37,933 bases of DNA from an uncultured Actinomycetes bacterium (lineage in GTDB: Bacteria; Actinomycetota; CADDZG01; WHSQ01): positions 1-37,933 of the forward strand of contig CALMBW010000024.1 of NCBI GenBank assembly GCA_937863385.1. Direction: 5' to 3'. A program made the position numbers and the translations under genes. The notes beneath the pieces are model-generated. The model was given only the letters and a program-made list of their open reading frames with translations, ran no database searches and had not been told where the DNA came from. Of the stretch, positions 18,444 through 35,919 are shown piece by piece. Every line of letters starts with the position of its first letter. Position 1 is the stretch's first letter.

Positions 18444-20468
18444 GTGTCCGACACCCCTGCACGGCCTCCGCTGCGATCGAAAACCAACCACCATTCCGGG
18501 CTGACCGGCATCGTCGTCCTGATCCTCGGCTTGGCCGGAGTCGTCCTTTGGGGATCGATGCTGCTGGCGCCCTATCGGTTGGCTACCGGCTTGCTCGATG
18601 CGGGCGACCACTTGAGGCGTGCCCAGAAGGCGCTCAGCCGTACCGAACTGAAGGTGGCTCGATACGAGGCACTCGCAGCTCAGGCTTCCGTGGACCGGGC
18701 GAGGAGCGCGTTGCGGACGGGTGGACCGGCGCTGGATCTCGCACGTTGGGTCGGAGTGGTCGACGATGCCCTCGGTGAGGTCCCCCATCTGATCTCAGCA
18801 GCACAGCACTCCACCAACGCCGCGCTTGGGACGCTGGATGTCGCCCAGGACGCCTTGAGGGGGCCGCGATCGATCATCGTCGACGACCCCAACGACGTGA
18901 ACAGAAAAACGGGCAAGCTCGGAAAGAAGATCGACCTCGGCCGGCTGGAAGAGATCGCTGCGACCATCGCCGAGGTTCACGATGAAGTCAGGGCGACACG
19001 GTCCGAGCTAAAGGCCGTCAACCTCGACAACATCCCAAAGCGAGGCCACGACTCGATCCTGGACGCTTTGGAAACGGCTGCGGAAGCGGACAAGACCCTG
19101 AGCGATGCTCAGGCCGGGCTAAAGATCTTGCCCTCCGTGCTGGGCGCGGACGGCGAGCGTACCTACATGATCGGTTTCCAGAACACCGCCGAACAGAGAG
19201 GTACCGGCGGCGCGATCCTGCAGTTCGGGTTCATGCGCATCAACGATGGGGCGCCGAAGCTGGATGAGAAGGTGAACAGCGTCTATGACGTCGACAAGAA
19301 CCGCACGCCGATCACCATCCCACTGACTTCTGAGGACTTCTACGTCCAAGCGATCCCCGATGCGCAACGCTTCGGTAACGCGAACTGGTCGCCCGATTGG
19401 CCTGCCTCCGCGGCTTTGACGGTGCGGTACGCACAAGCCACACCTGCGGACGAGCCGTTGCCCGACATCGACGGTGTGATCGTCGTCGACCCTCTGGCCG
19501 CGCAAGAGCTGATGAAAGGCGTCGGCCAGTTCCAGGTCGCCAACCGTTCGATCTCATCGCAGCGGATCGTCGACTTCATGTTGTACCGGGCGTATTCGCA
19601 GTTCCCGATCCCAGGTCAGCGCCGGGTGGTGCTGAACCTCGTCGTCGACAGGTTCTACGACGGCTTGTTCAACCCATCCAAGCCCACCGACCTGCTCAAC
19701 GGGTTCGGAGATGCGCTGTCCAAGAAGCACGTTCAGATCTACATGTTCGACCCCGCTGAACAAGCCTTCATCGAGCGCATGGATTGGGATGGCGGGATCA
19801 TCTTGCCATCCGAGCTCAAGAAGGATGACTACGTATACGTGGTCGAACAGAACGTCGGGGGCAGCAAGCTCGATTACTTCGACCGCAACCGCAACGAGAT
19901 GCAGGTGTCATTCGAGGGGTCCGACGCGCTGGTATCGACCAAAATGAGCGTCACCAACGGGGTGTTCTTGCCCCAGCCGCGCTACTCGATGGGCGACGCC
20001 CAGCGCTTGAACGGGGCGTGTGCAACGGGAAGGTGCCCCCTGCATAGACCGATGATGAACCTCTACGTGCGCGACGATGCGGAGTTCATCTCGGCGTCTG
20101 TTGAGGGTGACCGGATCGACACGCCTGCTCCGGCCGTGTGGACGGACCCGGCGCGGCCCCCCGAACACTTCGAGCGTGGCAAGAAGGTGTGGTCTGGGAC
20201 TCTGGAGATCCCTCCGGGCGAAACCGCGTCACTGAGCATCGACTACCGGGTTCCGGGCGTGCTTCAGTCCCAAGGGGGACGCTCGGTGTACCGTCTGCAG
20301 GTCCAGCACCAGCCCAAGGTCCAACCCGAGACCTTCGTTCTGAGGATCGCCATCCCCGCGGGAGCGACCGGGGTCAGGGCGCCTGGATTCGAACGTGATG
20401 GCGATGTGCTGGTGTGGGAATCGACGTTGAAGACCGATCTGGTACTGGAGGTTTCGTGGCGAAAGTAA
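18444..20468 (+). CDS. DUF4012 membrane-anchored protein
   Basis: A 674-residue protein with a short polar N-terminus, one transmembrane segment (residues about 19-43, GLTGIVVLILGLAGVVLWG), a helical region and a large exported domain. The segments ERTYMIGFQNTAEQRGTGGAI near 240-260 and NANWSPDWPASAAL near 315 match the DUF4012 family, whose members are extracytoplasmic proteins often next to polysaccharide genes in actinobacteria; their function is not established. GTG 18444 gives MSDTPARPPL; an upstream GTG at 18429 would add five residues and no good ribosome site distinguishes them. The stop overlaps the cytidylyltransferase gene by 13 bp, placing it in the polymer operon. A role in polymer assembly, transfer or anchoring is inferred from context alone. 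Confidence 0.82.
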   Translation: MSDTPARPPLRSKTNHHSGLTGIVVLILGLAGVVLWGSMLLAPYRLATGLLDAGDHLRRAQKALSRTELKVARYEALAAQASVDRARSALRTGGPALDLARWVGVVDDALGEVPHLISAAQHSTNAALGTLDVAQDALRGPRSIIVDDPNDVNRKTGKLGKKIDLGRLEEIAATIAEVHDEVRATRSELKAVNLDNIPKRGHDSILDALETAAEADKTLSDAQAGLKILPSVLGADGERTYMIGFQNTAEQRGTGGAILQFGFMRINDGAPKLDEKVNSVYDVDKNRTPITIPLTSEDFYVQAIPDAQRFGNANWSPDWPASAALTVRYAQATPADEPLPDIDGVIVVDPLAAQELMKGVGQFQVANRSISSQRIVDFMLYRAYSQFPIPGQRRVVLNLVVDRFYDGLFNPSKPTDLLNGFGDALSKKHVQIYMFDPAEQAFIERMDWDGGIILPSELKKDDYVYVVEQNVGGSKLDYFDRNRNEMQVSFEGSDALVSTKMSVTNGVFLPQPRYSMGDAQRLNGACATGRCPLHRPMMNLYVRDDAEFISASVEGDRIDTPAPAVWTDPARPPEHFERGKKVWSGTLEIPPGETASLSIDYRVPGVLQSQGGRSVYRLQVQHQPKVQPETFVLRIAIPAGATGVRAPGFERDGDVLVWESTLKTDLVLEVSWRK

Positions 20469-21202
20469 GAGCAGCGATCCTGGCTGCGGGACGCGGCGTA
20501 AGGATGGGCGGCGAGCGCCCCAAGACCTTGCTCGACCTCGATGGCCGGGGTTCGATGCTCGGCCACATCCTCACCGGACTGCGTGATGCAGGGGTCGAGG
20601 ACCTGATGGTGATCACCGGTTTCAAACCGGCCGAGGTCCAGGACTTCGTATCCCAGAACTGGGGCGAGGCCACCTACGTCCTCAACGCCAGGTACGCATC
20701 GTGGGGCAACTTCCACTCGGTGCGGATCGCCGTCGACCAATCGCCCGGTTTCGATCTGATGATCGTCAACTCCGACATCGTCGTGAGCCCCTCGGTCTTC
20801 AAACGAGTTATCGACAAGGAAGGTGACTTGATCTTGGCCGTTCAGCGCAAACAGCGCCTCGACCAAGAAGACATGCGCGTTCAGCTGAACGGTGACAGGG
20901 TCCTGGCACTGGGCAAGGAACTGAAGATGGCTCGCAGCCATGGCGAATACTGCGGCGTCTCGATGCTTCGTCACCAGGCGCAACGCCTCTACGCGGATGT
21001 CGCAACAGACTGGGAATGGCGATCGAACACCCACGGGTACTACGAGGACGTCTACAACCAGATCACGGGCACGCTTGATGCTCGCGCATCCGAGGTTGCG
21101 GCGGGCGAGTACGCCGAGGTGGACACGCCAGAGGACGTTGCATCGGCCGTCAAGGTGATCGAACGGCACCTATCGGCAGCGACCGCCGATGCCTCTGCCT
21201 GA
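20456..21202 (+). CDS. Nucleotidyltransferase, phosphocholine/inositol-phosphate cytidylyltransferase-like
   Basis: A 248-residue single-domain sugar-nucleotidyltransferase fold enzyme. It begins VRAAILAAGRGVRMGGERPKTLL, the LxxGxGxRxxxxxPK nucleotide-binding loop (positions about 20465-20530). It continues with YASWGNFHSVRIA near residue 75, IVNSDIVV near 102 (metal Asp), GKELKMARSHGEYCGVSML near 150, and EVDTPEDV near the end. The combination is nearest to LicC and CTP:inositol-1-phosphate cytidylyltransferases, which make CDP-alcohols. GTG 20456 was chosen because GGAGG lies 6 nt upstream. The gene overlaps the glycerol-1-phosphate dehydrogenase homologue by 14 bp, so its likely substrate is that enzyme's product, giving CDP-glycerol. 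That specificity is inference; choline-, ribitol- or inositol-phosphate remain possible. Confidence 0.82.
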   Translation: MAKVRAAILAAGRGVRMGGERPKTLLDLDGRGSMLGHILTGLRDAGVEDLMVITGFKPAEVQDFVSQNWGEATYVLNARYASWGNFHSVRIAVDQSPGFDLMIVNSDIVVSPSVFKRVIDKEGDLILAVQRKQRLDQEDMRVQLNGDRVLALGKELKMARSHGEYCGVSMLRHQAQRLYADVATDWEWRSNTHGYYEDVYNQITGTLDARASEVAAGEYAEVDTPEDVASAVKVIERHLSAATADASA

Positions 21203-22223
21203 GGTTTTCCTTTACGATGCTTCGGACTCGGTTTCCGAAGCATCGGCCGACCTTGCCGCCACACTCTCCGAGCTGGGGACGGAGGCTCCTTTCGTCATCG
21301 CTTCGCACCACGGGGCCGTATACGCGCACGCCATCAAGACGGCGAGCGATCCACGAACCCCCGGCCCTCGAGCGGATCAGGACTGGGCGATGGATACCGG
21401 CTCGGCCGCCAAACGGGCCGGGGCGGACTCGATAGTTGCGATCGGTGGGGGCCGCGTTCTGGACCTCGGAAAGCTCGTGGCCGCTCGCGCAGGGTTGAAA
21501 GTCATCGTGGTTCCGACCCAGCTCTCACACGATGGGATCTGCTCTCCCGTCGCCGTCGTGCTCGACGACGACGGGCGCAGCCAGAGCCTCGGCGCGGTAG
21601 AACCGAGCGCTGTCTACCTGCCCATCCCAACCTTGATGAACGCTCCTCTTACCTCCTTCGCCGCCGGGCTTGGCGACCTGATCGCCAACCCACTGGCGTT
21701 ACGGGACTGGCGGCTCGCTGCGGAACACGGTCTGGAAGAGATCGATCAGCCGGCTTGGGACCTCTCTGCCGAGGCGTACTCAATCATCGAGCGATATCTC
21801 GACGAGGACCTCGCCTCTTGCGCTTCGGACCCCGAGTTCGTCAAGCTGTTAGCCCAAGCCCTGATCCTGTCGGGCGAGTCAATGATCGCCTCGGGAGATT
21901 CTCGGCCCGCATCGGGCGCGGAACACGAGATCTCGCACGCCATCGATCACCTCTACGGAGGCCGGGCGCTGCACGGGGAACAGGTCGCCTTCGGCTGCAT
22001 CTTTTCCGTCGCTCTCTACGGAGACGACCCGGCCGGGTTGATGAGCCGTTTGAGGCGCCTTGGGCTGCCCGCCCACCCCACCGATCTGGGCCTCGACGCC
22101 GGCGCCACTGAGGCCGTTCTCTTGGAGGCCCCGGAGACGAGGCCGGGACGCTTCACGGTCCTCGAAGATGCCGACCTCGACCCGAGGTCTGCCCGGGCCC
22201 TCATCGCAAGGATCTGGTCCTGA
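21189..22223 (+). CDS. sn-glycerol-1-phosphate dehydrogenase homologue (EgsA/AraM-like)
   Basis: A 344-residue iron/zinc-type alcohol dehydrogenase-fold protein. The glycine loop AIGGGRVLDLGK (residues 84-95) binds NAD(P), and VPTQLSHDGICSP (108-120) is the segment diagnostic of glycerol-1-phosphate dehydrogenases. Metal ligands are expected at D163 (GLGDLI), H246 (SGAEHEISH) and H262 (LHGEQV). The enzyme reduces dihydroxyacetone phosphate to sn-glycerol-1-phosphate, the stereoisomer used in archaeal lipids and, in some bacteria, by the AraM branch. ATG 21189 overlaps the cytidylyltransferase gene by 14 bp. No prenylglyceryl phosphate synthase is seen, so the product is more likely to be activated by the cytidylyltransferase. 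A related polyol-phosphate dehydrogenase activity cannot be excluded. Confidence 0.85.
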   Translation: MPLPEVFLYDASDSVSEASADLAATLSELGTEAPFVIASHHGAVYAHAIKTASDPRTPGPRADQDWAMDTGSAAKRAGADSIVAIGGGRVLDLGKLVAARAGLKVIVVPTQLSHDGICSPVAVVLDDDGRSQSLGAVEPSAVYLPIPTLMNAPLTSFAAGLGDLIANPLALRDWRLAAEHGLEEIDQPAWDLSAEAYSIIERYLDEDLASCASDPEFVKLLAQALILSGESMIASGDSRPASGAEHEISHAIDHLYGGRALHGEQVAFGCIFSVALYGDDPAGLMSRLRRLGLPAHPTDLGLDAGATEAVLLEAPETRPGRFTVLEDADLDPRSARALIARIWS

Positions 22224-22317
22224 GTCCAAACCCTAGGGAGGAGACCCAGCCCTGGTAAAGAAAGACTCCTGCAGCGTCAGGTGGACGCTTTGTGGGACTC
22301 GGATGGGGACCCCCGGG

Positions 22318-22336
22318 GGCCGGGCTTTGCCCGGCC
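22318..22336. terminator. GC-rich hairpin, possible terminator
   Basis: Perfect 8-bp stem (22318-22325 / 22329-22336) with loop TTT, about 95 bp after the dehydrogenase stop and before the phosphodiesterase promoter. Only a short pyrimidine tract follows, so it may be weak, or simply an RNA structure that separates the two transcripts. Confidence 0.35.
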
Positions 22337-22399
22337 TTCCTCGCGCCCGGCTTCTTGTCGCGCCGAACCTCGGCTGCTCTCAGGGGCTCCCGCCCTGGC

Positions 22400-22405
22400 T
22401 AGGAT
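22400..22405 (+). promoter_or_regulatory. Putative -10 box of phosphodiesterase 1 gene (leaderless)
   Basis: TAGGAT (TAnnnT) followed by 7 nt and ATG 22413. The AGGA inside it could also act as a weak ribosome site; both readings give the same start. Confidence 0.4.
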
Positions 22406-22412
22406 GCCTGGC

Positions 22413-24020
22413 ATGACTCGCAAGGCTGTGGTGATCGGGCTCGATGGGGCCGCATGGCACCTGCTGGACCCGATGATCGACGCCGGGGTGATGCCACGCC
22501 TCGGTGCCCTCAAGGCCCGGGGCTCATCCGGAACGCTAACTTCTACGATCCCCACATACACGCCGCCAGCGTGGACATCGTCGGTCACGGGCGTGAACCC
22601 GGGGCGTCACGGCGTCTACGGGTTCATCGAAGGCAACGCTCAGGCCGAACGCCAAGAGCTGATGCACTCGGGCAAGATCAAGTCGCCGACCCTGTGGGAG
22701 ATCGCCAACGCGCAAGGCGTTCGCTGCGGCATCTACAACCTGCCCCTTACCTATCCCCCGCGGCCCCTCGACGGTTGGATGGTCTCGGGGATGATGACGC
22801 CGGGCTATGGCGAAAGTCAGCGCGACTTCGTCTATCCGGCGGCGCATCAGGAGAAGATCTTGTCGTGGGCTCCGGGCTACGTCTTGGATGTCCATGCCAA
22901 CTACGAGCAGGACTGGCGTGACGACTCGTTGGCGCGCCGCGCTCTTGCGTCCATCGAGCAGCGCTACACCGTCCTCGACCGGCTCCTGCAAGAAGACCCT
23001 GTCGATCTTCTGTTCACCGTCCAGGAAGCTCCTGATCGGATCCAGCACGTCTACTACCGCTACATGGACCCCCGCGACCCTCTCTACGACACCGGCCAAG
23101 GCGCAAGGATGCGCGATGCCGTGCTCGAGTGTTTCGCCAAGATCGATGAGATAGTCGGCCTGCTCGAGGACTGGGCCTCGGCCGATGGCGCCATCCAAGT
23201 GGTGTCCGACCATGGCTTCACGGCTTGGGAAGTAAGCGTCCATCAGAACGCACTACTTCAGCAGTGGGGCTACCTGAGGCTGAAACCCGCGGCACGAGCG
23301 ATGCAGACGGGTTTCGCTCGCAGCCTGGTACCACTTGCCAAGCGGGCTCTGCCCCGCAAGGTGGCGCGGGAGGCCAAGAGCAAAACCTTCGCCGCGATCG
23401 ATTGGGCCAACACACGTGCGTTCGCGTCTCCGATCCCACAGCAAGGCGTCTTCGTCAACCTTGCAGGGCGCGAACGGTTCGGGATCGTTCCGCAAGGCGA
23501 GCTCGAATCGATCAAGGACGATCTGGTCCGTAGATTCCAAGAGCTGCGGGCGCCCGATGGCGGGCCGGCCACGGACAGGGTGTATCGCTCGCAAGAGGTC
23601 TTCTCCGGCCACGCGATCGATGGCGCCCCCGACATCCTTCCGGTGCTGCGCGATCATCGCTTCGAGCTCGACGACGAGCTGTTCCACAAGCAGGCCTTCA
23701 CCGACGTCTCGGACATGCCACGTGGCGTCCATCACCCCGATGGGATCGTCGTCGTGGCCGGGCCGGGCTCGTCAGGCACCAGCTTCGATGCTCACGTCAC
23801 CGACGTGATGCCCACGCTGCTATACCAGGCAGGCCTGAAGGTTCCGGAGGGCCTCGATGGAAAGGTCATGGAAAGCGCGTTCGACCCCGGGCATCTGACG
23901 AGGCATCCGGTGCAGACCACCGCAGCCCTGTCATCATCTTTGAAGGACGAGGAGTCTCCCTACTCGGCGGCTGAAGAGGCCGAGATCGAAGAGGCTCTGC
24001 GGGGCTTGGGCTACCTCTAG
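22413..24020 (+). CDS. Type I phosphodiesterase/nucleotide pyrophosphatase family protein 1
   Basis: A 535-residue alkaline phosphatase superfamily enzyme (Phosphodiest type). Metal and nucleophile residues are visible: D11 in VIGLDGAAW, T50 in TYTPPAWTSSVTG as the Thr nucleophile, DRIQHVYYRYMD with the Asp-His pair near residue 209, SDHGFTAWE near 269, and a final His in GVHHPDGIVVVAG near 440. It has no signal peptide or membrane segment. It is a paralogue of the enzyme at 27136-28749: the whole chain matches, including the end EEAEIEEALRGLGYL. Start ATG 22413 was preferred to longer starts since the beta-strand begins there. The gene lies 10 bp before a sugar-1-phosphate transferase. It may hydrolyse or transfer a phosphodiester in the polymer pathway; the substrate is unknown. 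Confidence 0.85.
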   Translation: MTRKAVVIGLDGAAWHLLDPMIDAGVMPRLGALKARGSSGTLTSTIPTYTPPAWTSSVTGVNPGRHGVYGFIEGNAQAERQELMHSGKIKSPTLWEIANAQGVRCGIYNLPLTYPPRPLDGWMVSGMMTPGYGESQRDFVYPAAHQEKILSWAPGYVLDVHANYEQDWRDDSLARRALASIEQRYTVLDRLLQEDPVDLLFTVQEAPDRIQHVYYRYMDPRDPLYDTGQGARMRDAVLECFAKIDEIVGLLEDWASADGAIQVVSDHGFTAWEVSVHQNALLQQWGYLRLKPAARAMQTGFARSLVPLAKRALPRKVAREAKSKTFAAIDWANTRAFASPIPQQGVFVNLAGRERFGIVPQGELESIKDDLVRRFQELRAPDGGPATDRVYRSQEVFSGHAIDGAPDILPVLRDHRFELDDELFHKQAFTDVSDMPRGVHHPDGIVVVAGPGSSGTSFDAHVTDVMPTLLYQAGLKVPEGLDGKVMESAFDPGHLTRHPVQTTAALSSSLKDEESPYSAAEEAEIEEALRGLGYL

Positions 24021-24030
24021 GAGACAGACG

Positions 24031-25488
24031 TTGGCGCAGGCCACAACCATCACCGAGAACGCGGTGTCGGCGACCCCGATCCGCAAGGGCCGGAGCGCCT
24101 CTCGCATCGCGCTGCGCGTGATCGCGGACGGGATGGCCGTGTCCTCCGCGATGTTCCTTGCCTCTTTCATCCGCTTCGATCTGAGTTCCGAGATCCCCGC
24201 CGCTCGGGGGGTCTCCTACCACTTCGTGACCTTCGTGGGGACGTGGGTGGCGCTCTTTCTGTTCTGGCTCTACGGGCTGTACGAACCTCGTCAAGTACTC
24301 AGTCCCGTCAACGAGTTCAAGCAGGTCTTCCACGCGATCTTCGCCGGCACCGCCCTGATCTTCGTTTCCGATTCGTTGTGGCGGCTCAACCTCGCACGGG
24401 GGTGGGCCTTCATGGTCTTCGCCCTGGGCTTGGTGGTCGTGGGTGGCGAGCGGCTCGTCATCCGAAAGGTCCTGCACTTCTTGCGACGCCGGGGCGGAGA
24501 TGCAACGCGCACGATCGTGCTCGGGTCCAACCACGAAGCCCGGACGGTGGCAAAGACGCTCGAACGAGAGGGATGGCTCGGGTACAAGATCCTCGGCTTG
24601 GTGGACGACGCTCTGCCCAAGGGCACCCAGGTAGAGGAAGGGTACGAGGTGATCGGCTCCGCCGACGAGTTAAAGGAGCTGGTCGTTAGGCACCAGGCGG
24701 GGCTCGTGCTGGTCGCGGCTACGGCGTTCGATGCGACCAGGCTCAACCGGATGCTGTGGGAGCTGCAGGATCTAGACATCGACCTCCAGATCACTTCGGG
24801 CACCGTGGATCTGATGGCTTCACGCATGACCGTCCAATCGGTCGCCGGCGTACCTCTCCTGTATGTCCGGCGCACGGGGATGAACAGGGTTCAGCTGACC
24901 CTCAAGCGTTCTCTCGATGTGTTCGGTTCCGCTCTGGGATTGCTGCTGCTGTCACCGTTCCTCGCTGCGATCGCCTTGTGGATCAAGAAGGACTCGCCCG
25001 GCGGGGCATTCTTCGGACAGGTCCGCTCGGGCCGGGACGGGAAGACATTCAGATGTTGGAAGTTCCGCACCATGGTCGCCGACGCCGAGGCCCGCAAGGC
25101 CGAGCTCGAGCACCTGTCCGAGGGCCCGGGGCTACTTTTCAAGCTCAAGGACGACCCTCGCGTCACCAAGGTGGGCAAGACGCTGCGCCGCTACTCACTC
25201 GACGAGCTCCCCCAGCTCTTCAACGTCTTGAAGGGCGAGATGAGCCTGGTGGGGCCGCGTCCTGCTCTCCCCAGTGAGGTGGAGCAGTACGACGACTGGG
25301 TTCGCAACCGGCTGAAGGTGAAACCGGGGATGACCGGTCTCTGGCAGGTCTCGGGCCGGGCAGAGACGAGTTTCTCGGATTACGTCCGCTTCGATCTCTT
25401 CTACATCCAGAACTGGTCCCTCAGCCTCGACCTGTGGATCCTGTGGCGCACACTACGCGCCGTCACCGAAGCAGAAGGCGCCCACTGA
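24031..25488 (+). CDS. Polyprenyl-phosphate sugar-1-phosphate transferase (exopolysaccharide initiating enzyme)
   Basis: A 485-residue WcaJ/WbaP-type (PNPT-like) phosphoglycosyl transferase that starts a lipid-linked glycan by moving sugar-1-phosphate from a UDP-sugar to polyprenyl phosphate. There are about four N-terminal membrane segments (residues about 30-145), then a Rossmann-like CoA-binding-type region (TIVLGSNHEARTVAK, near 165), and a hydrophobic re-entrant segment near 295-320. The catalytic cytosolic domain follows, with KRSLDVFGSALGLLLLSP, FRCWKFRTMVADAE, SLDELPQLFNVLKGEMSLVGPRP and KPGMTGLWQVSGR. The TTG start at 24031 follows AGGAG by 8 nt; the next ATG would cut into the first membrane helix. 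It sits in the polymer cluster and marks it as a glycan pathway. Confidence 0.93.
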   Translation: MAQATTITENAVSATPIRKGRSASRIALRVIADGMAVSSAMFLASFIRFDLSSEIPAARGVSYHFVTFVGTWVALFLFWLYGLYEPRQVLSPVNEFKQVFHAIFAGTALIFVSDSLWRLNLARGWAFMVFALGLVVVGGERLVIRKVLHFLRRRGGDATRTIVLGSNHEARTVAKTLEREGWLGYKILGLVDDALPKGTQVEEGYEVIGSADELKELVVRHQAGLVLVAATAFDATRLNRMLWELQDLDIDLQITSGTVDLMASRMTVQSVAGVPLLYVRRTGMNRVQLTLKRSLDVFGSALGLLLLSPFLAAIALWIKKDSPGGAFFGQVRSGRDGKTFRCWKFRTMVADAEARKAELEHLSEGPGLLFKLKDDPRVTKVGKTLRRYSLDELPQLFNVLKGEMSLVGPRPALPSEVEQYDDWVRNRLKVKPGMTGLWQVSGRAETSFSDYVRFDLFYIQNWSLSLDLWILWRTLRAVTEAEGAH

Positions 25489-25524
25489 AGACTGGCGGCC
25501 CCTGCAACTAAACGCTCCAAGGAG

Positions 25525-25530: not shown

Positions 25531-25536
25531 CGAAAC

Positions 25537-25917
25537 ATGCTCGAAGAGATCATCATCGAAGTCGAGAACGATCAGCCGGGAACTCTCGCGGAGATCGGCG
25601 AGCTTCTAGGAAAGAGCGGCACGAACATCGAGAGTCTCGCCTCTTCGAGTCACCTTGGGCGCGGGGTCATCCACCTGGTGGTCGACGATGGCGAAGATGC
25701 CGGTGAGATGCTCAAGGCGAACGGTTTCAAGGTCGCCACCGTCAGACAGGTCCTCGCCACCACTCTTGACGACAAGCCCGGTGCGTTCGGCAATTACTGC
25801 CGGCGTTTGCACGAGGCCGGGATCGATATCTCTGCGTGTTACGTCTCGCGGCGCGGTAACGGCGAGACTGAATTCATCTTCGCCGTAGACGACCTACAGG
25901 CCGCCAAGCACGCTTAG
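25537..25917 (+). CDS. Tandem ACT-domain protein
   Basis: A 126-residue protein holding two ACT-like units: residues about 3-65 (IIIEVENDQPGTLAEIGELLGKSGTNIESL) and about 72-124 (VLATTLDDKPGAFGNYCRRLHEAGIDISACYVS). ACT domains bind amino acids or other small ligands and usually regulate an enzyme; a stand-alone pair is typically a sensor or partner. No catalytic domain is present. It follows the sugar transferase by 48 bp and is convergent with the DUF4383 gene with 6 bp between stops. A link to the polymer locus is not evident. Confidence 0.8.
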   Translation: MLEEIIIEVENDQPGTLAEIGELLGKSGTNIESLASSSHLGRGVIHLVVDDGEDAGEMLKANGFKVATVRQVLATTLDDKPGAFGNYCRRLHEAGIDISACYVSRRGNGETEFIFAVDDLQAAKHA

Positions 25918-25923
25918 GGCCCC

Positions 25924-27135: not shown

Positions 27136-28749
27136 TCACAGATACCCGAGGTTCCGAAGGGACTCTTCGATCTGCGCTTCTTCCTCGGCTGAGTATGGGG
27201 TCGCTTCAACCCCCTCACCCGCTAGGGGAAGCTGCATCGCCTCTATCTGCACCGGGTTGGCAGCAACATGAGCTTCGGGGAGGAACTCGGTGAGCACCCG
27301 GCCATCGACTTCCGGGATCTTCAGACCGGCCAGATACAGGGCGGTCGGCATGATGTCGAGCAGCGATGCACGCTCGCCGCTCACCGGCATAACGCCGGGG
27401 CCGGCGACCCCGAAAACACCATCCATGTGATGAAAGCCGCGGGGTAGCTTCGTGTAGTCGTCAAGGATGCCGGGCGAGTAGAGGCCGTCGGAGAGCTCGT
27501 AGCTGTACTCGCGGCATACAGGGAAGAGATCGGGGGCATCGGGCGTCTGGGCACCCGTCAAGATCTCTTCACGCCTGTAGATGCGATCCACGACAGGCTT
27601 GCCGTCGTCGGGATCGGTCAGAGCGGAGAAACGTTCGATGATCTCGTCGCGCACCTTGTCGTAATCGTCTTGCTCCACGATGCCGTTCGGCTCGCGCCCT
27701 TTAAGGTTGATGTAGATGCCTTGCTGCGGGATAGGGGCCGAGAAAGCCTTGGTCTTGGACCAATCGATCGTTCCTTGAGCTTGCTGCTTAGCCTTCTGCC
27801 ACACCGATTTCGGGAGCACCTTCTTGGCCTTACGCGCCAGCTTACGCACCCCGGCGCTCTTGGCTACCGAACCGGCCCCCCCAACCGACAACATCCCCCA
27901 CTCGCGCAGAGCAACATTGACGTTCACGGATTTATCTTTCGGCCCGAAACCGTGATCCGACATCGTGATGATCCATCCGTCATCACCTGCCCAGGCGATC
28001 ATGTCGCCGATCATCTCGTCCATCTCATCGAAGAACTGCCAGGCACGCTCGCGGATCGGAGCTGCTTCAGGTGCGCCGTAGTGGGGGCAGCGCGGATCGA
28101 TGTACTTGTAGTGCACGTGCATCAGCCGGTCGGGCGACTCGATCACCGAGAACAGGATCGGAACGTCGTTCGTCTCGAGGAGATGCCGTTGTGCCACTCG
28201 TTTCGCTGCCAGATTCTTGGAGAGGCGCTCGATGATCGCGGTTGACTTCCAATCCTCGTCGTAATCGACCTCGATGTCGATCTCGTAATGACCGACCTTC
28301 GAGGAGATCTCAGCGCCGAGAGAGTCCGGGTAGGTGAAGTGTTCGGGTGTGGATCCGCCCCCTTCGGGGGTCAGCATCCCGGACACCGAAAAACCGTCCA
28401 CCGCGGGGGCCGGGTAGGTCATGGGGATGTTGAACAGACCGATGCGAGTTCCTTGAGCGTTGGCCGCGTTCCAGATAGCGGGAGCTGTCACCCGGTCGAG
28501 GCGCACCAAGCCTTTCACCTGCTGAACGTTGCCCAGGGTGAAGCCGAAGATCCCGTGCTTGCCGGGGTTGACCCCCGTGAAGATGCTCGTCCACCCCGGA
28601 GGCGTGTAGGGCGGCACCGTCGAAGTGAGATACCCGGATGCGCTCCTATCGAGGAGAGCCTTGTAGTTGGGCATGTGACCTGCTTCGAAGGCAGGGTTCA
28701 AGACGTTGTAGGTGATCCCGTCGATCCCCAGTAAGAGAACTTTGCTCAT
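27136..28749 (-). CDS. Type I phosphodiesterase/nucleotide pyrophosphatase family protein 2
   Basis: A 537-residue alkaline phosphatase superfamily enzyme, a paralogue of the gene at 22413. Key residues are D10 in LLLGIDGITY, T49 nucleophile in PYTPPGWTSIFTG, SPDRLMHVHYKYID near 206, MSDHGFGPKD near 270, and GFHHMDGVFGVAG near 440. It shares the C-terminal element EEEAQIEESLRNLGYL with the paralogue. It has no signal peptide. Start ATG 28749 overlaps the CDP-alcohol transferase stop by 4 bp, with AAGGAG about 15 nt upstream. Longer reading of the frame upstream runs over the neighbouring gene and is rejected. Two copies of this enzyme flanking one locus suggest related but distinct substrates. 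Confidence 0.87.
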   Translation of the reverse strand: MSKVLLLGIDGITYNVLNPAFEAGHMPNYKALLDRSASGYLTSTVPPYTPPGWTSIFTGVNPGKHGIFGFTLGNVQQVKGLVRLDRVTAPAIWNAANAQGTRIGLFNIPMTYPAPAVDGFSVSGMLTPEGGGSTPEHFTYPDSLGAEISSKVGHYEIDIEVDYDEDWKSTAIIERLSKNLAAKRVAQRHLLETNDVPILFSVIESPDRLMHVHYKYIDPRCPHYGAPEAAPIRERAWQFFDEMDEMIGDMIAWAGDDGWIITMSDHGFGPKDKSVNVNVALREWGMLSVGGAGSVAKSAGVRKLARKAKKVLPKSVWQKAKQQAQGTIDWSKTKAFSAPIPQQGIYINLKGREPNGIVEQDDYDKVRDEIIERFSALTDPDDGKPVVDRIYRREEILTGAQTPDAPDLFPVCREYSYELSDGLYSPGILDDYTKLPRGFHHMDGVFGVAGPGVMPVSGERASLLDIMPTALYLAGLKIPEVDGRVLTEFLPEAHVAANPVQIEAMQLPLAGEGVEATPYSAEEEAQIEESLRNLGYL

Positions 28750-29471
28750 CTGGATGCTCTCAATCTCCTTCTGATGGTCAGCAGGATAGCGGTCACGACC
28801 ATGGCTATCCCGGTAGCCAGCGCCGGCACCACCAGACCGGTGAGGGGGCCGAAGATGAAAACGATGGCTTGCACGTCGGGCATACCCGGGTTGGGAAGCA
28901 ACCGGTGACGGCCCAGTGCCGCCGACCACTTACCCCTCGCACCAGTTGCACTGGGGTCCTTCTCGGCCCCCGATATCTCGAGGAAGTAGTAGGCCAGTAC
29001 TGAATACACCAGAGCCCAAAGAACATCTGCCTCGGTCCCGCTCCCCCATCCCCGGCCGTCGGCGCTCCAGAGATAGAGGCCGATCCCGAGACTGCCCGCC
29101 GCACGCCTGCCTCCATCGGCAAGTGCATCGAGCGCCTTGCCGCGCTCGCTCGTTACCTTCAAGGCCCGAGCGAGCTTTCCGTCGACACAATCCAAGACGA
29201 ACGCCACGTAGAACATCAACCCACCGAGCGCCAGGCTCCAGCGGGTTGCGTAACCGAAGCAGAATCCTGCCGCCAGACCTGCAACGAGGGCAAGGATGGT
29301 CACTTGGTCTGGGGTCAGAAGCTTGCGGCGCGCTAGGAACCGGCTCAGTGGGATCGCAACCGGGTCGGTCAGAAGCACCGTGAACCAATAGTCGAGCTTC
29401 TTGGCACCTCGTTCGTCGGCAGCGAAGCCACCTTGCAGAGGCGACCTGAGGTCCTGCGTGGGATCGCTCAC
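28746..29471 (-). CDS. CDP-alcohol phosphatidyltransferase family enzyme
   Basis: A 241-residue integral membrane enzyme. The family signature is intact: D94-x-x-D97-G98-x-x-A101-R102, then eight residues, G111, D115 and D119. These Asp residues hold two metals and displace CMP from a CDP-alcohol with another alcohol. About six membrane segments are seen. GTG 29471 was chosen: it overlaps the GT2 stop as GTGA and gives the usual short N-terminus, while the longer frame lies over the GT2 gene and is compositionally unlike protein. CDP-glycerol made by the cytidylyltransferase and glycerol-1-phosphate dehydrogenase homologue is a plausible donor, but phospholipid synthesis (CDP-diacylglycerol) is an alternative. 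It sits between a glycosyltransferase and phosphodiesterase 2. Confidence 0.87.
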   Translation of the reverse strand: MSDPTQDLRSPLQGGFAADERGAKKLDYWFTVLLTDPVAIPLSRFLARRKLLTPDQVTILALVAGLAAGFCFGYATRWSLALGGLMFYVAFVLDCVDGKLARALKVTSERGKALDALADGGRRAAGSLGIGLYLWSADGRGWGSGTEADVLWALVYSVLAYYFLEISGAEKDPSATGARGKWSAALGRHRLLPNPGMPDVQAIVFIFGPLTGLVVPALATGIAMVVTAILLTIRRRLRASR

Positions 29472-30436
29472 GTGCTGGTTGCCGGGTCGATCAGGCCCCT
29501 GCCGCGCGCCTGCTCGAGGGCGCCCGCGATCATCCCGGTCACCAATCCAGGGTCGCGGGTCTGGGCGGCCTTTCCGATGTTCAGGATGAACAGACCGGTC
29601 AGCGCCCACCAGAGAGCCATGCGATGCCTGAGATCCTGGGGCATGAGCTTGCGGTGCAGGTAGAACTGGTTGGCGATGTTCATCCTCTGCAGGTTGTGGG
29701 AGTTCAAGCGTGCTGCCGGAGCTTTGAGATGATCGCATCGCGCTGCTGGATCTTGCAGCAACGTGTAATGGCGCGACACCCGGTAGCTAAAATCGATGTC
29801 TTCTTTGTATCCGTATCCGGCGAGCTTCTCGTCGAACAGCTCGTGATCGAAGACCTCTCGCTTGTACGACATGAACCACCCGTTGAAGTACTCGACCTTG
29901 CGGATACCCGCCGAGTCCGAGATGCCTTCCGCGTAGAAGCCTGCCCGCACCTTCCCTGAGGACTCCGGCCACCAGCCGCCGATCCCGAACAGCTTTCGGT
30001 ACAGGATCGTGAGGCGGTTCGGGCGCGCAGGCCGCACCGGCGTCGCGCGCACCCCGCCTAAAGGCTTCCCCTTGCCGTTCCAGGAAGTCTCCCATCGTTC
30101 GTACGTAGCGAGGATCCTCTCGTGGCAATCCTTAGCCAGAGCGACATCGTCGTCGATCAAGAACACCGGATCGCCGGTCGTACGAGAGATGCCGATGTTG
30201 CGCTGGATCGTGAGGCCTCGGGGGGCCGGGTGGTGGTAGTCGAGGGCCACCCCCGCCTCGGCGCAAAGCTTCTCGATCTCGGGCCGGGTGCCGGCCTCGT
30301 CCGAGGAGTCAACGATGCACAACTCACGGGGTAAGACCGTCTGGCCCATGAGGCTGGCAACCGTGTCCAGCAGGTCGTCCGAACGGTTCCGGGTCGCGAT
30401 CACGAACGCCGAAGGCGCGGTTTGGGTGTCAGTCAT
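29468..30436 (-). CDS. Family 2 glycosyltransferase
   Basis: A 322-residue GT-A fold glycosyltransferase. It opens with SAFVIATRNRSDDLLDTVASL, has the DxD-type metal motif D95-D-D97 in FLIDDDVAL, and an acidic acceptor motif E212-D213 in YKEDIDFSYR. A hydrophobic patch near residues 275-295 may attach it to the membrane. It transfers a sugar from a nucleotide sugar to a growing saccharide. Neither donor nor acceptor can be read from sequence. The ATG at 30436 lies 50 bp after the lipoprotein phosphatase gene, with a TAnnnT box 11 nt upstream (TACCCT), and it begins the tightly coupled GT2, CDP-alcohol transferase, phosphodiesterase string. Confidence 0.88.
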   Translation of the reverse strand: MTDTQTAPSAFVIATRNRSDDLLDTVASLMGQTVLPRELCIVDSSDEAGTRPEIEKLCAEAGVALDYHHPAPRGLTIQRNIGISRTTGDPVFLIDDDVALAKDCHERILATYERWETSWNGKGKPLGGVRATPVRPARPNRLTILYRKLFGIGGWWPESSGKVRAGFYAEGISDSAGIRKVEYFNGWFMSYKREVFDHELFDEKLAGYGYKEDIDFSYRVSRHYTLLQDPAARCDHLKAPAARLNSHNLQRMNIANQFYLHRKLMPQDLRHRMALWWALTGLFILNIGKAAQTRDPGLVTGMIAGALEQARGRGLIDPATST

Positions 30437-30486
30437 AGCCGCCGTGCAGGGTATCGCCTGAAGGGGGTAAGCGGTTCAGGCTGAGG

Positions 30487-32112
30487 TCAGTTCCGTCCTG
30501 CGCATTCGAGGATCTCGGCCAGGCGGGAGCCGGGGAAAGCTGCTTCGAACACCCGCTCGTCGGCCCGGTCACGGTACTCCTCGGGCAGCTCTTCGCCGTC
30601 GTGGTTCTCTTCGATCGTGTAGGTGAGCACGAAACGCGCAACGTCTTCCATGGTCACGCCCATCTCGGCACCGACCTCCTCATCGAAGAAGATCCCCACC
30701 GCACTAGTGTCCTTGACTAGAGACTTCCCCGAAGGCGTTTCGAAGAAGGCATCGATGTCTTCTTTGAGTTGCCCGTTCGCGATCGCCCAGGCCCCGGTTC
30801 GCTGCGGCGACGGCGTGTGTCCGTGGTCGGCGGTCATAGCGATCACGTAGTCGCCGACCGTTTCATCGAGTAGCTCTATCAGCCGAGCCAGCCCATCATC
30901 CTGCGAGCGGACCGTCGCCTCCATCTCTGGCGAATCCATGGTGTATTGGTGCCCAACGATGTCGCTCATCTTGTAGTTGATGCTCAGGAGGTCTGGGACC
31001 TCGTCGGCGCCGAATCCCTCACCTGAGATCAGCGAGAGCAACACGCCACTCTGGAAGTTCGACCAGGCTGGGTTGTCGTGCATCTCGAGGATGTCGTGCG
31101 ACATCCACTTCCCGTCTACTTCGCCGTCGGACCGGTCGAGCTCGTCGACGGCTTCTTCGAGACCGGGGGCTTCTCGGAGGTAGTCAGGCGTGCGATAGAA
31201 CTCATCATTGCCACCGATCGCGTTCCCTTCTTCGAACAAGGCCAGCACGTCTTTGTCACCACCCGGCCGCGCGCTACCGTGCGAGAACATCCCCATGTGC
31301 CACGAGCGCCACCCGAGCAATCCCACTTTGGGTGCATTCCCAAGCTCGACGTCGATCAGATCACCGAACGTTGCTACGTCCAGAACGGAAGCGTCACGGC
31401 CTTGGAACGCAACACCTACCTCTCCCGAGTCGAGCGTGTACTTGATCCCGGTCACACCATGAGCGCGGGGATAGAGGCCGGTGCCCATCGACGAGTGGGT
31501 CGCCGGCGTGATCGATGGTGATGAGCCGACGACGGCGTCAAGGTAAGAGGTGCCCTCTCGCTCCAACCGGCCGAGGGTTGGCCATGCGTCCGGCCACCGT
31601 TCGAGCACGTTGCGACCGACGCCATCCCACACCAACAAGATCACCAGTTTGGGCGTAGGGGCGCCCGGTTCGATCATCTCCGTGAGAGCACGGCCGGTGC
31701 GCTCGGGAAGGTCGACTCCGGTGAGCTCGCCCATGGTGGGGAAGATGTCCACCACCGAGGCCGGACCGGGGAGCCGTCCGGCGGGCTTGATGATGCCCGG
31801 GCCGTAGAAGATCAGGGGGACGTTCTGCAGGTAGTCCCAGGGACCGGAGTGGTTCGGGACGGCGAAGGTCCCCGAGTAGTTCGGGAACTTGGGCAGCATG
31901 ATGATGTCCTCGGAGCGCTCCTTGTCGTAGCCGCGCCAGATGCGATCGAGCAGTATCGGATCAACCTCGCACCCGAGCCGGACGAGGTCTACCTCGCCAA
32001 CCGCCTCCTCTTTGCGTTGCTTGGTCTCTTCAGGTGAGTCACCCGTGCACGCCACGAGCAACGAGAGCGATAGCACAAGAGCGATAGAACGGACGTGCAT
32101 CCTTGACTTCAC
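30487..32112 (-). CDS. Lipoprotein of the alkaline phosphatase superfamily with permuted motif order
   Basis: A 541-residue exported lipoprotein: the signal ends LLVAC with Cys22. The order of motifs is unusual. The block normally at the C-terminus of phosphatase-type members is near the N-terminus: NHSGPWDYLQNVPLIFYGPG (H88) and VVDIFPTMGELTGVDLPERTG (residues 121-140). Only then come the first metal Asp D163 in LLVWDGVG, the Thr nucleophile T202 in SITPATHSSMGTG, and late metal ligands D384, H388 (MSDIVGHQY) and D429-H430 (TADHGH). The chain then ends without the usual last block. GTG 32112 was chosen because its GTGA overlaps the WecG/TagA stop and AGGA lies 6 nt upstream; ATG 32100 also works. 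It probably cleaves or transfers a phosphate ester outside the membrane; the substrate is unknown. Confidence 0.8.
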   Translation of the reverse strand: MKSRMHVRSIALVLSLSLLVACTGDSPEETKQRKEEAVGEVDLVRLGCEVDPILLDRIWRGYDKERSEDIIMLPKFPNYSGTFAVPNHSGPWDYLQNVPLIFYGPGIIKPAGRLPGPASVVDIFPTMGELTGVDLPERTGRALTEMIEPGAPTPKLVILLVWDGVGRNVLERWPDAWPTLGRLEREGTSYLDAVVGSSPSITPATHSSMGTGLYPRAHGVTGIKYTLDSGEVGVAFQGRDASVLDVATFGDLIDVELGNAPKVGLLGWRSWHMGMFSHGSARPGGDKDVLALFEEGNAIGGNDEFYRTPDYLREAPGLEEAVDELDRSDGEVDGKWMSHDILEMHDNPAWSNFQSGVLLSLISGEGFGADEVPDLLSINYKMSDIVGHQYTMDSPEMEATVRSQDDGLARLIELLDETVGDYVIAMTADHGHTPSPQRTGAWAIANGQLKEDIDAFFETPSGKSLVKDTSAVGIFFDEEVGAEMGVTMEDVARFVLTYTIEENHDGEELPEEYRDRADERVFEAAFPGSRLAEILECAGRN

Positions 32113-32894
32113 CGGCCGTCCTTAGACCGTCCAAAGGCATCACGCGTCACGCGCCAAAGGAACGCGGGGTTGCCCACCACGTATCTGCGCCACAACCTGC
32201 CCGGTTCGAGCACAAGTCGCCAAAGCCACTCGACACCGAGCCGGTTCATCCAGGCAGGCGCTCGGCGCACGCGCTCGGCAGCGAAATCGAAGAACGCTCC
32301 GACGCCAACCCCTAGCAAGCAACCCGTCGCTCGAAGGTTCTCTGCCAGCCACCGTTCTTGCAAGGGGTTGCCCATCGCAACCATCACCACATCGGCGCCG
32401 GTGTGGCGGATCTCTGCGGCCAGGCGAGCATCCTCGGTTCGGGGAAAGAATCCATCGTGCGTGCCGGCCACATCGAGTCCGGGGATCTTGGCCCGCAGCT
32501 TGCCGGCTGCCTGCGAAGCTACACCCGGGTGGCCTCCCAACAGGTAGACGCTCCATCCCCTGCGTGCCGCCAGCTCCAGGAGCTTGGGGTTGAGATCGGA
32601 ACCGTTCAGATTCTCGGGGAACGGCCTCTTTCTCAGACGACCGGCCAGCCCAACACCGGCTCCGTCGTTCAAGACCACATCTGCAGAGCACAGGATGTCT
32701 CGATACGACGGGTCTATGGATGCAAGGTTGAGCGTGTGAGCATTCACGTACGCCACCAGGGCCGGGGGGTGCTCGGTGGCCGCTCTCTCGATCGTCGCGA
32801 GGGCTTGCTGCGAGGAAGCCTGCAGGATCGGAACCCCCAGGATCTCGATGGTCGATAACGGCGGCATGGCGGTGGTCAAGATACACGGGGCCAC
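32109..32894 (-). CDS. WecG/TagA/CpsF family N-acetylmannosaminyltransferase-like glycosyltransferase
   Basis: A 261-residue GT-E family membrane-associated glycosyltransferase. Motifs are YVNAHTLNLA (residues 49-58), LNDGAGVGLA with catalytic-type D77, NLNGSDL, LLGGHPGVA, VMVAMGNPLQERW, GVGAFFDFAAERVRRAPAW, and the basic C-terminus LGVEWLWRLVLEPGRLWRRY. In teichoic acid and enterobacterial antigen pathways this family adds the second sugar (ManNAc or ManNAcA) to polyprenyl-diphosphate GlcNAc. GTG 32894 has GAGGA 10 nt upstream; ATG 32867 is a possible shorter start. It is the first gene of the minus-strand run and divergent from the MOSC gene. With the glycerol-phosphate genes it recalls a teichoic-acid-like linkage unit, which is inference. 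Confidence 0.9.
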   Translation of the reverse strand: MAPCILTTAMPPLSTIEILGVPILQASSQQALATIERAATEHPPALVAYVNAHTLNLASIDPSYRDILCSADVVLNDGAGVGLAGRLRKRPFPENLNGSDLNPKLLELAARRGWSVYLLGGHPGVASQAAGKLRAKIPGLDVAGTHDGFFPRTEDARLAAEIRHTGADVVMVAMGNPLQERWLAENLRATGCLLGVGVGAFFDFAAERVRRAPAWMNRLGVEWLWRLVLEPGRLWRRYVVGNPAFLWRVTRDAFGRSKDGR

Positions 32895-32953
32895 GGACTA
32901 TCGATCCTCGGATATACGCTGGGTATCCACTTGGGTTGGGCAGACTGTTGCTG

Positions 32954-33733: not shown

Positions 33734-33802
33734 AAAAGCTATGGTTGACGGTCCGGGCGCCTCACGGTGCCCCATCCCGACAGCTATCAACGGAGGTCTT
33801 GC

Positions 33803-35032
33803 GTGCCCGCGCCGAACGTGCTTTTCCTGGCGATCGACTCCCTAAGAGCCGACGCCATCTTCGGCAACCACATCGAGACACCGAATATCGACTCCTTCGC
33901 TTCGGCAGGAGCCAGCTTCACGCAGTGTGTGTCCACGACCACTTCCACGACTCCGTCCTTCTCCTCGATGCTCACCGGCTGCTACCCACCGAAGCATGGG
34001 GTACGGGGGCTGCAGGGATACCGGCTGCGCTCGGACCTGACGACCTGGGCACAGGCGTTCTCGGAGGCCGGCTACAACACCCACGCCGAGGTGACCGGTC
34101 CACTGCTGCCGGAAACGGGGATCCTGCGCGGGTTCGATGACGCCCGCCACCGCCAGGGCTACAAGGTGCCCTTCTTCAACTGGCGCGATGAGGTCGTCGA
34201 GCGCATGCACTCTTACGTCGATCCATGGTTCATGCTCTTGCACATCTGGGAGGTTCACCGCCCCTACCGCGCCCCCCCAGATTTCACGAAGCGATGGGAT
34301 AGGTCCGGGTACGAGGCTGCCGTCGCGGCAACCGACGAGTGGCTCAAGCCCGTCTTCGACGCCTGCAGCGACAACACCATCGTCGTCATCACCGGAGATC
34401 ACGGCGAGGACTACCCCGACACACCGATGGAGCAGAAGGTGCTGCGCGCGGCTCGCAAAGCCCGTGGCAAGTTCAAGCTGGGGAAGTGGTTCCCATGGCT
34501 CGACAAGAAGCTCTCGGGTCTGGTCGTCGGTCACGGATTCGCCCTCTACGAGCACTTGGTTCGAGTGCCTTTGATCATCGCCGGCCCCGGGGTCAGCCAC
34601 GGCTCCTACTCCCAGCAGGTCCGTCACGTAGATCTGTTTCCAACGATCGCAGATCTCTGTGGGGTTCAAGTACCCGGCGGGATCGACGGGCGCAGCCTGA
34701 AACCGATCATCGACGGCCAGTCGTTGCCGGATGAGCCGGCTTACATGGAGGCGGTCGGAGTCAAGCTCGAAGGCAACCGGATCGAGGGCGTTCGCACCGA
34801 AGACTGGAAGCTTCTGAAGACCGGTTCCAACCGTCCCCAGCTCTTCAAGCTCGACGGCAGCACGGGACCCGACGAGAAACGCAACGTCTACGGCAAGTTC
34901 CCTGAGGTTGCCCGGCCCCTGGAGGAGTTCCTTGCGGGCGTTCGGGCGGGCGAAGTGGTCGCAGAATCTGGGATGACCGAGGAAGAAGAGGCGACGGTCG
35001 AACAGCATCTGCGCGACCTCGGTTACCTGTAG
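33803..35032 (+). CDS. Sulfatase-fold hydrolase with Thr in place of the catalytic Cys
   Basis: A 409-residue sulfatase-family protein: PNVLFLAIDSLRAD with D12, TPNIDSFASAG, TTPSFSSMLTG, ITGDHGEDY near residue 205, GHGFALYEHLVRVPLIIAGPG near 245, and DLFPTIADLCGV. The Cys/Ser-x-Pro-Ser-Arg position reads T49-T-P-S-F53, so the formylglycine modification cannot occur and sulfate ester cleavage is doubtful. Thr is the nucleophile of phosphodiesterases, phosphonate hydrolases and LtaS-like glycerolphosphate transferases in the superfamily. It has no signal peptide. GTG 33803 was chosen because GGAGG is 6 nt upstream. It shares the tail EEEEATVEQHLRDLGYL with the two phosphodiesterases and is followed by a sulfotransferase after 8 bp. 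Confidence 0.85.
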   Translation: MPAPNVLFLAIDSLRADAIFGNHIETPNIDSFASAGASFTQCVSTTTSTTPSFSSMLTGCYPPKHGVRGLQGYRLRSDLTTWAQAFSEAGYNTHAEVTGPLLPETGILRGFDDARHRQGYKVPFFNWRDEVVERMHSYVDPWFMLLHIWEVHRPYRAPPDFTKRWDRSGYEAAVAATDEWLKPVFDACSDNTIVVITGDHGEDYPDTPMEQKVLRAARKARGKFKLGKWFPWLDKKLSGLVVGHGFALYEHLVRVPLIIAGPGVSHGSYSQQVRHVDLFPTIADLCGVQVPGGIDGRSLKPIIDGQSLPDEPAYMEAVGVKLEGNRIEGVRTEDWKLLKTGSNRPQLFKLDGSTGPDEKRNVYGKFPEVARPLEEFLAGVRAGEVVAESGMTEEEEATVEQHLRDLGYL

Positions 35033-35040
35033 GGCGAGAA

Positions 35041-35919
35041 GTGATCGCGCCGTTCTTCATCGTCGCATCGGCTCGCTCGGGTACCACTTTTCTGCGACTG
35101 ACGTTGAACGCGCACCCTCAGGTCGCCGTGCCCCCCGAGTCCCGCTTCATCACCGAGCTGAGCCCCGGCGCGGCAACGATCGGGCGCGATGACTTCCTTC
35201 AGCAGCTTGCAGCACACAAACGCTTCAAGACGTGGGGGCTGCCTATCGACGCCGTCGCCGCAGAGATCGGCGAGCGTGCTGACCTGGCTTACACAGATGC
35301 CATCCGCTGCACCTACGTCGCGTACGCGAAGCGCGACGGTAAGTCTTCGTGGGGGGAGAAGACACCGCGCTACATCGAGAACATCCCCATGCTTGCTGGG
35401 ATGTTCCCCGACGCTCGCTTCATCCACATCGTGAGAGACGGACGCGATGTCGCTCTGTCCTATGCGCATGTCGACTTCGGCCCTCGTACCGTCGCCAAGG
35501 CAGCACAGCTCTGGAGCCGCCGGGTTGCCGCCGGCATCCGAGATGGCCGGCCTCTTGGTCCTCAGCGATACATCGAGATCCGAAACGAGGACCTCGCGAA
35601 CGACACCGAAGCCGAGGTCACCAAGATCTGTAGCTTCCTCGGCATCGAGGCGGATCCGGCGATGTTCGACGAGAAGGCCCGGGCCCGCGGCATCGTCGAG
35701 AAGAGCAAACACAACTTCGATCCTGCCGCCGGCGGACGAAAGCGCATGTCCGACTGGCGTACCGAGATGCGACCTCGCGATATCGAAGTGGTCGAGACGG
35801 TCGCGGGTGATGTGCTGTCGCAGGTGGGCTACGAGCGGCGCTACCCCCAGCCCGGTCCCCGAGCCCGCCTCGAAGCCAAGCTCGCCCTGCTGGGCCTGCC
35901 GCTAGGCCGGATCAAGTAG
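35041..35919 (+). CDS. PAPS-dependent sulfotransferase
   Basis: A 292-residue sulfotransferase. The 5'-phosphosulfate loop VASARSGTTFL (residues 8-18) and the 3'-phosphate motif RDGRDVALSYAH (132-143) are both present, which is the family hallmark. It moves sulfate from PAPS to a hydroxyl or amine on a glycan or lipid. There is no transmembrane segment. It starts with GTG, 8 bp after the sulfatase-fold gene, so the two are probably coexpressed. The acceptor is unknown; decoration of the saccharide built by this locus is the simplest guess. No PAPS-synthesis genes are in the window. Confidence 0.9.
   Translation: MIAPFFIVASARSGTTFLRLTLNAHPQVAVPPESRFITELSPGAATIGRDDFLQQLAAHKRFKTWGLPIDAVAAEIGERADLAYTDAIRCTYVAYAKRDGKSSWGEKTPRYIENIPMLAGMFPDARFIHIVRDGRDVALSYAHVDFGPRTVAKAAQLWSRRVAAGIRDGRPLGPQRYIEIRNEDLANDTEAEVTKICSFLGIEADPAMFDEKARARGIVEKSKHNFDPAAGGRKRMSDWRTEMRPRDIEVVETVAGDVLSQVGYERRYPQPGPRARLEAKLALLGLPLGRIK

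Follow-up and report, generated by a model that had tools for sequence, protein, structure and literature searches.

LicC, PntC and IPCT are cytidylyltransferases which activate small phospho- or phosphono-alcohols with cytidine triphosphate (CTP), the first acting on phosphocholine, the second on aminoethylphosphonate and the third on inositol-1-phosphate. To our knowledge, besides the use proposed below, sn-glycerol-1-phosphate (G1P) has only one other known use in bacteria, the PcrB-dependent synthesis of heptaprenylglyceryl phosphate. Here we describe a gene cluster on contig CALMBW010000024.1 of an uncultured Actinomycetes bacterium (assembly GCA_937863385.1), analysed over its whole length of 37,933 nucleotides (the window), in which the gene of an sn-glycerol-1-phosphate dehydrogenase (G1PDH) is found together with those of a cytidylyltransferase (CyT) and of a cytidine diphosphate (CDP)-alcohol phosphotransferase (CDP-AP). 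We consider it probable, at roughly 60%, that these genes form a cassette of the CDP-alcohol type in which G1P is the alcohol and the phosphoglycerol is passed to a lipid-linked glycan.

Among the described systems closest to this cluster, IPCT-DIPPS, which comprises IPCT and the di-myo-inositol phosphate synthase, likewise combines a MobA-like cytidylyltransferase with a CDP-alcohol phosphotransferase, and is matched by the profiles of both CyT and CDP-AP; in the window, by contrast, the genes are separate, a G1PDH replaces the inositol-phosphate synthase and glycan genes lie around. The head-group activation systems of LicC and PntC resemble CyT in fold, and a pairing of CyT and CDP-AP also occurs in Sulfitobacter, but the alcohol-making partner in the window is the G1PDH, and in the host genome phosphoenolpyruvate (PEP) mutase had no match, nor did any choline kinase score above cut-off. 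Wall teichoic acid, made by TagD-TagB-TagF through CDP-sn-3-glycerol, has a CDP-glycerol donor, a WecG/TagA enzyme and a lipid-linked acceptor in common with the cluster, whereas the window has no TagB/TagF, a cytidylyltransferase of another family and a predicted opposite stereochemistry of the glycerol. The lack of a TagB/TagF-like polymerase, already pointed out in an earlier annotation of the window (hereafter, the sequence-only reading), extends to the whole 2.77-Mb genome, where no PF04464 gene was found by a search that was positive in the Bacillus subtilis control; a classical teichoic acid was rejected on this ground.

Lipoteichoic acid is likewise built of glycerol-1-phosphate (Gro1P) units, phosphatidylglycerol serving as the source of the Gro1P polymer in B. 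subtilis (PMC7086022). The difference is in the donor, which for LtaS is phosphatidylglycerol outside the cell and for the window is predicted to be intracellular CDP-glycerol. The sequence-only reading had regarded the G1P stereochemistry as unusual in bacteria; since the lipoteichoic acid of B. subtilis is a Gro1P polymer, this argument was wrong as written, and the new element would be a CDP-activated route to Gro1P units, not Gro1P itself. The Bacillus AraM-PcrB pathway to heptaprenylglyceryl phosphate also employs a bacterial G1PDH, but the window is devoid of PcrB and its G1P is predicted to be converted into CDP-glycerol. Finally, an araM-tagGH block located by the hopanoid genes of Streptomyces shows the same core of G1PDH, nucleotidyltransferase, CDP-AP and family 2 glycosyltransferase (GT2), and differs from the window in gene order, in an ABC exporter and in a second CDP-AP/DUF5941. 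This block has been reported as tagGH/araM synteny only (PMC13118837), and in the open-licence literature we found no paper proposing or testing its chemistry.

All the genes named in the sequence-only reading were recovered by open reading frame listing and by Pfam, NCBIfam and PDB searches of the window. The three genes of the cassette are:

~20456 to 21202, plus strand: CyT, a MobA-like CTP:phospho-alcohol cytidylyltransferase (PF12804), predicted substrate G1P
21189 to 22223, plus strand: G1PDH (PF13685)
~28746 to 29471, minus strand: CDP-AP (PF01066, catalytic signature)

The start of CyT was inferred as the GTG behind GGAGG. The overlap between the CyT and G1PDH genes, as well as the position of CDP-AP in the facing operon, had been described correctly: the former measures 14 bp, and the latter gene overlaps both its neighbours by 4 bp, with its GTG start on the stop of a GT2 gene and its own stop on the ATG of a phosphodiesterase gene (PDE2), when the starts are placed before the conserved N-termini.

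Of the 16 genomes from the host's family, 15 have G1PDH, as compared with none of eight from two sister families. Synteny of the cluster extends through the family, and all nine family genomes with long enough contigs proved to contain CDP-AP, which lies about 20 kb away in G006. In the whole phylum, a clear score gap separates the strong G1PDH matches (>270 bits) from the rest. At the 17 strong loci outside the main cluster of the family, CyT was adjacent in 15, CDP-AP in 15 and at least one of them in all 17, as compared with 0/12 control loci carrying weaker G1PDH or glycerol-dehydrogenase genes. When GTDB loci were collected by the G1PDH profile alone, 77 out of 80 (the 80 being mostly from Streptomyces and not independent) had CyT within 6 kb, and the other three start less than 200 bases from a contig end; no CyT match occurred in 597 kb of distant flanks or in 229 kb of control DNA. 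The gene order varies by lineage, including CyT>G1PDH with a distant CDP-AP, CDP-AP>G1PDH with a convergent CyT, CDP-AP/DUF5941>CyT>G1PDH>CDP-AP and CyT-SpoIID-G1PDH-CDP-AP-WecG, and the G1PDHs bearing the module are spread over several deep branches of the tree. In Streptomyces the order is CDP-AP/DUF5941 - CyT - G1PDH - CDP-AP - GT2 - TagGH-like ABC exporter, while in genome G025 WecG too adjoins the module. Because it is conserved across the family, and because the adjacency of CyT or CDP-AP recurs in the phylum and is absent at the control loci, the arrangement is not due to chance; the neighbourhood survey suggested along with the sequence-only reading thus gave a strong co-occurrence.

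Starting from the computed gene identities, coupling, conservation, co-occurrence and absence of alternatives, we infer the acceptor, the stereochemistry and, on the basis of the families and neighbours of the genes, all the catalytic steps as follows. G1PDH would reduce dihydroxyacetone phosphate (DHAP) to G1P, which CyT, translationally coupled to it, would convert with CTP into CDP-sn-1-glycerol; the membrane-bound CDP-AP would then attach phosphoglycerol to a hydroxyl group on an acceptor linked to a lipid. This acceptor, in the host family, is probably an oligosaccharide on polyprenyl diphosphate, which the sugar-1-phosphate transferase would start and WecG and GT2 would extend. The glycan would finally be displayed on the surface, with trimming or modification by the alkaline-phosphatase-fold enzymes and the sulfotransferase of the cluster. 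The route from DHAP through G1P and CDP-glycerol to phosphoglycerol transfer had been sketched before; it is retained here by inference from the co-occurrence, the G1PDH motifs, the lack of PcrB and PEP mutase and the lack of a choline kinase above cut-off.

CDP-AP is a multi-spanning protein with transmembrane (TM) stretches and the full catalytic signature D-x2-DG-x2-AR-x8-G-x3-D-x3-D, at D93...D118. Its profile matches AF2299 (101 bits), phosphatidylinositol phosphate (PIP) synthase (63 bits), DIPP synthase (60 bits) and CPT1 (39 bits), the range for eukaryotic choline/ethanolamine phosphotransferases being 39-36 bits. The last matches would fit a Kennedy-type step in which CDP-sn-1-glycerol is used on diacylglycerol or another membrane lipid, giving a phosphoglycerolipid instead of a glycan decoration and, with diacylglycerol as acceptor, phosphatidylglycerol of ordinary head-group handedness; the loci L062 and L063, where only a GT2 gene accompanies the module, agree with it too. 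We regard this as unlikely, although it is the best of the alternatives, since the CDP-AP gene of the host family is coupled to that of GT2 and has WecG, DUF4012 and the sugar-1-phosphate transferase in its neighbourhood, and elsewhere the module has WecG beside it (G025) or GT2 and an ABC-2 polysaccharide-type exporter (Streptomyces). Moreover, the genome encodes three further members of the CDP-AP family, which would serve for ordinary lipids and make the one in the window an extra member.

Some relatives of CDP-AP deserve a separate mention. In Streptomyces-type clusters the CDP-AP behind G1PDH is without the fourth Asp of the signature (LDRVGAY/LDRVGHY), as found at L003:12863-13339, L005:10875-11363, L089:10929-11648 and L113:10890-11600, while the one upstream of CyT (the DUF5941 protein in L003) retains it; the two may share the labour, or one of them may be non-catalytic. 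The relative G006 has a second pair of G1PDH and CDP-AP (L046:8969-11819); a gene of the metallo-beta-lactamase fold follows shortly behind this pair, and an ATP-grasp gene lies upstream of it. On a Sulfitobacter plasmid (L170:5983-8798), a class V aminotransferase, a CDP-AP and a cytidylyltransferase follow one another, apparently a cassette of the same kind for another alcohol; as the pair there adjoins an aminotransferase, this suggests that the alcohol can be read from the third gene.

For CyT (CYTIDYLYLTRANSFERASE), the best solved relatives of the profile are LicC (101.9 bits), PntC (79.7 bits) and the inositol-1-phosphate cytidylyltransferases of T. maritima (77.3 bits) and A. fulgidus (64.3 bits), and the AlphaFold (AF2) model, with a pLDDT of 94.5, has LicC, IPCT and PntC as nearest folds. 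CyT thus has the NTP-transferase fold, in which the metal Asp and the PK motif are conserved. Phosphocholine was rejected as substrate, given the lack of a choline kinase above cut-off in the genome and given that the choline-facing tryptophan of LicC, at the position we take it to occupy, is an invariant Met in CyT; a phosphonate pathway was rejected because PEP mutase had no match at all in the genome. Inositol-1-phosphate is a possible substrate, because the genome encodes an inositol-1-phosphate synthase. An activation of another phospho-alcohol, inositol-1-phosphate most plausibly, by a CyT that would be a neighbour of G1PDH outside any common pathway is therefore in line with the fold, the profile matches and this synthase, but the synthase lies on a different contig, and the adjacency of G1PDH and CyT is near universal over deep lineages, so that we hold this for rather improbable. 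In the literature searched there was nothing relevant on a glycerol-1-phosphate cytidylyltransferase or on CDP-2-glycerol.

The dehydrogenase of the window resembles the G1PDHs more than the glycerol dehydrogenases, and its DHAP to G1P activity is predicted from this resemblance. It scores 207 bits with the G1PDH model PRK00843 and 70 bits with glycerol dehydrogenase; similarly, a profile of 13 relatives gives 142-216 bits with the solved G1PDHs, presumably from M. jannaschii, S. acidocaldarius and other organisms, and ≤102 bits with glycerol dehydrogenases. The top PDB match of this profile (3ce9, 240 bits) was deposited as a glycerol dehydrogenase and groups by motif with the G1PDHs. The conserved motifs SHDGICSP and SRPASGAEHEISHA agree with the patterns [S/A][H/N]DG..S and SRP.SG.(E/C)H, whereas some glycerol-dehydrogenase controls have DAPxS instead, and the invariant D163, H246 and H262 align with the metal-site Asp/His/His of solved G1PDHs. 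These motifs and scores, and the constant CyT/CDP-AP partners which are lacking at the loci of the weaker homologues, make it very improbable that the protein is a plain glycerol/dihydroxyacetone or sugar-related iron alcohol dehydrogenase in a cluster for ordinary exopolysaccharide, as its iron alcohol dehydrogenase annotation and the presence of other weak homologues in sugar operons would have it. Least probable of all is a use of G1P for archaeal-type ether lipids as in Bacillus, the sole light in which actinobacterial G1PDHs have been discussed (PMC6431249), but which we rejected because GGGPS/PcrB is lacking in the host genome (24 further module or family genomes gave four short partial PcrB matches only, one of 47 residues just above cut-off).

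Several observations weigh against the transfer of phosphoglycerol from CDP-sn-1-glycerol to a lipid-linked glycan. The closest solved relatives of CyT take phosphocholine, inositol-1-phosphate and a phosphonate, not glycerol-phosphate. The score of G1PDH is short of the NCBIfam curated cut-off of PRK00843 (413 bits), a cut-off which appears narrow, as only three of 14 control genomes pass it and 13 give a match. The distance from G1PDH to CDP-AP is about 7 kb in the window; CDP-AP is not beside G1PDH in L145 and L077, nor is CyT in L142 and L046. No flippase, polymerase or ABC exporter was found in the window cluster, L062 and L063 have no glycan-initiation genes near the module, and the literature searched gave no description of an assay on any enzyme of the lineage. 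CDP-AP enzymes add one unit. Since no polymerase was identified, and since the module of L062/L063 comes only with GT2, the product may equally well be a glycolipid, or a glycan decorated with one phosphoglycerol, as a polymer. Outside the window, the genome has one Wzy-type (Wzy_C) protein and three ligases of the LytR-CpsA-Psr (LCP) type; the window sulfatase has no LtaS-type N-terminal TM helices, the LtaS search being confined to the window.

If the proposed route is true, the bacterial G1PDHs, so far little understood, would gain a job beyond archaeal-type lipids, namely the supply of activated glycerol-phosphate for a surface glycan or glycolipid. These enzymes serve as evidence in the debates on the lipid divide and the last universal common ancestor, and Streptomyces is counted among the bacteria with archaeal lipid genes (PMC6431249, PMC5059525); given that their partners are CyT and CDP-AP, and not a prenyl-glyceryl-phosphate enzyme, more proof is needed before actinobacterial G1PDHs are taken for genes of archaeal lipids. 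Streptomyces has a polyglycerolphosphate lipoteichoic acid and no LtaS orthologue, and the route to it was stated as an open question in a study which favoured an overlap with tagB/tagF teichoic acid synthesis (PMC3196553). The module, found in many culturable Streptomyces, is an attractive candidate for LtaS-independent Gro1P polymers in actinobacteria. Tentatively, one may extend this to the whole of Actinomycetota, where the G1PDH of a CDP-sn-1-glycerol pathway could make Gro1P glycopolymers in the cytoplasm with neither phosphatidylglycerol nor LtaS; most of the 'archaeal-type' G1PDHs of actinobacteria might have their true role in this pathway, which might also be the missing route to lipoteichoic acid in Streptomyces.

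The other genes of the region are:

18429 to 20468, plus strand: DUF4012 membrane-anchored protein with one N-terminal TM helix (28-46) and a large outer domain (PF13196, 87.8 bits)
~22413 to 24020, plus strand: PDE1, type-I phosphodiesterase fold (PF01663, family scan), without signal peptide, start inferred from conservation
24031 to 25488, plus strand: initiating polyprenyl-phosphate sugar-1-phosphate transferase, WbaP/WcaJ type (PF02397, 227 bits; TIGR03025, 440 bits, above cut-off)
25537 to 25917, plus strand: ACT protein (family scan)
~27136 to 28749, minus strand: PDE2, paralogue of PDE1 (~42% identical; family scan), without signal peptide
29468 to 30436, minus strand: GT2 glycosyltransferase (PF00535)
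30487 to 32112, minus strand: PafA-like alkaline-phosphatase-fold lipoprotein, secreted (PF01663, 100 bits; PafA model, 111 bits, below cut-off)
32109 to 32894, minus strand: WecG/TagA/CpsF glycosyltransferase (PF03808, 206 bits; TIGR00696, above cut-off)
33767 to 35032, plus strand: sulfatase-family enzyme, no TM predicted (PF00884, 114.5 bits)
35041 to 35919, plus strand: sulfotransferase (PF13469, 128 bits)

The plus-strand unit thus reads DUF4012 - CyT - G1PDH - PDE1 - sugar-1-phosphate transferase - ACT, and the facing minus-strand unit WecG - PafA-like - GT2 - CDP-AP - PDE2; beyond the latter, MOSC, sulfatase and sulfotransferase follow on the plus strand. The ACT and MOSC genes look unrelated to the pathway. 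The DUF4012 gene, in which the 18444 of the sequence-only reading is a second in-frame GTG, lies directly upstream of CyT in most loci of the host family. Its AF2 model (pLDDT 77.6) has no convincing PDB relative, and a kinship with the LCP proteins was not supported (hhalign probability 0.2%; only partial beta-sandwich matches in the structure search, TM-score <0.28). PDE1, PDE2, the PafA-like protein and the sulfatase account for the four alkaline-phosphatase-fold enzymes already counted. PDE1 and PDE2 are apparently cytosolic, have complete active sites and a common C-terminus (...LRxLGYL), and are kept together across the host family; against the PDB they gave a partial phosphonoacetate-hydrolase match only, and they are candidates for recycling or transfer. 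The PafA-like protein has a lipobox-like LVAC behind an N-terminal hydrophobic stretch. GT2 is a recurrent companion of the module, seen in L062/L063, in Streptomyces (L003) and in the window itself; L139, L140, L142, L143, L005 and L113 have weak GT2 matches where the gene would be expected. The sulfotransferase is syntenic in several relatives.

Further upstream, positions 10998-12998 encode a protein of 666 aa in which some 20 stretches of the RTX calcium-binding nonapeptide occur. An NAGPA-type phosphodiester glycosidase gene is located at 7963-9330, and such a gene is near the cluster also in L039, L040, L042 and L044.

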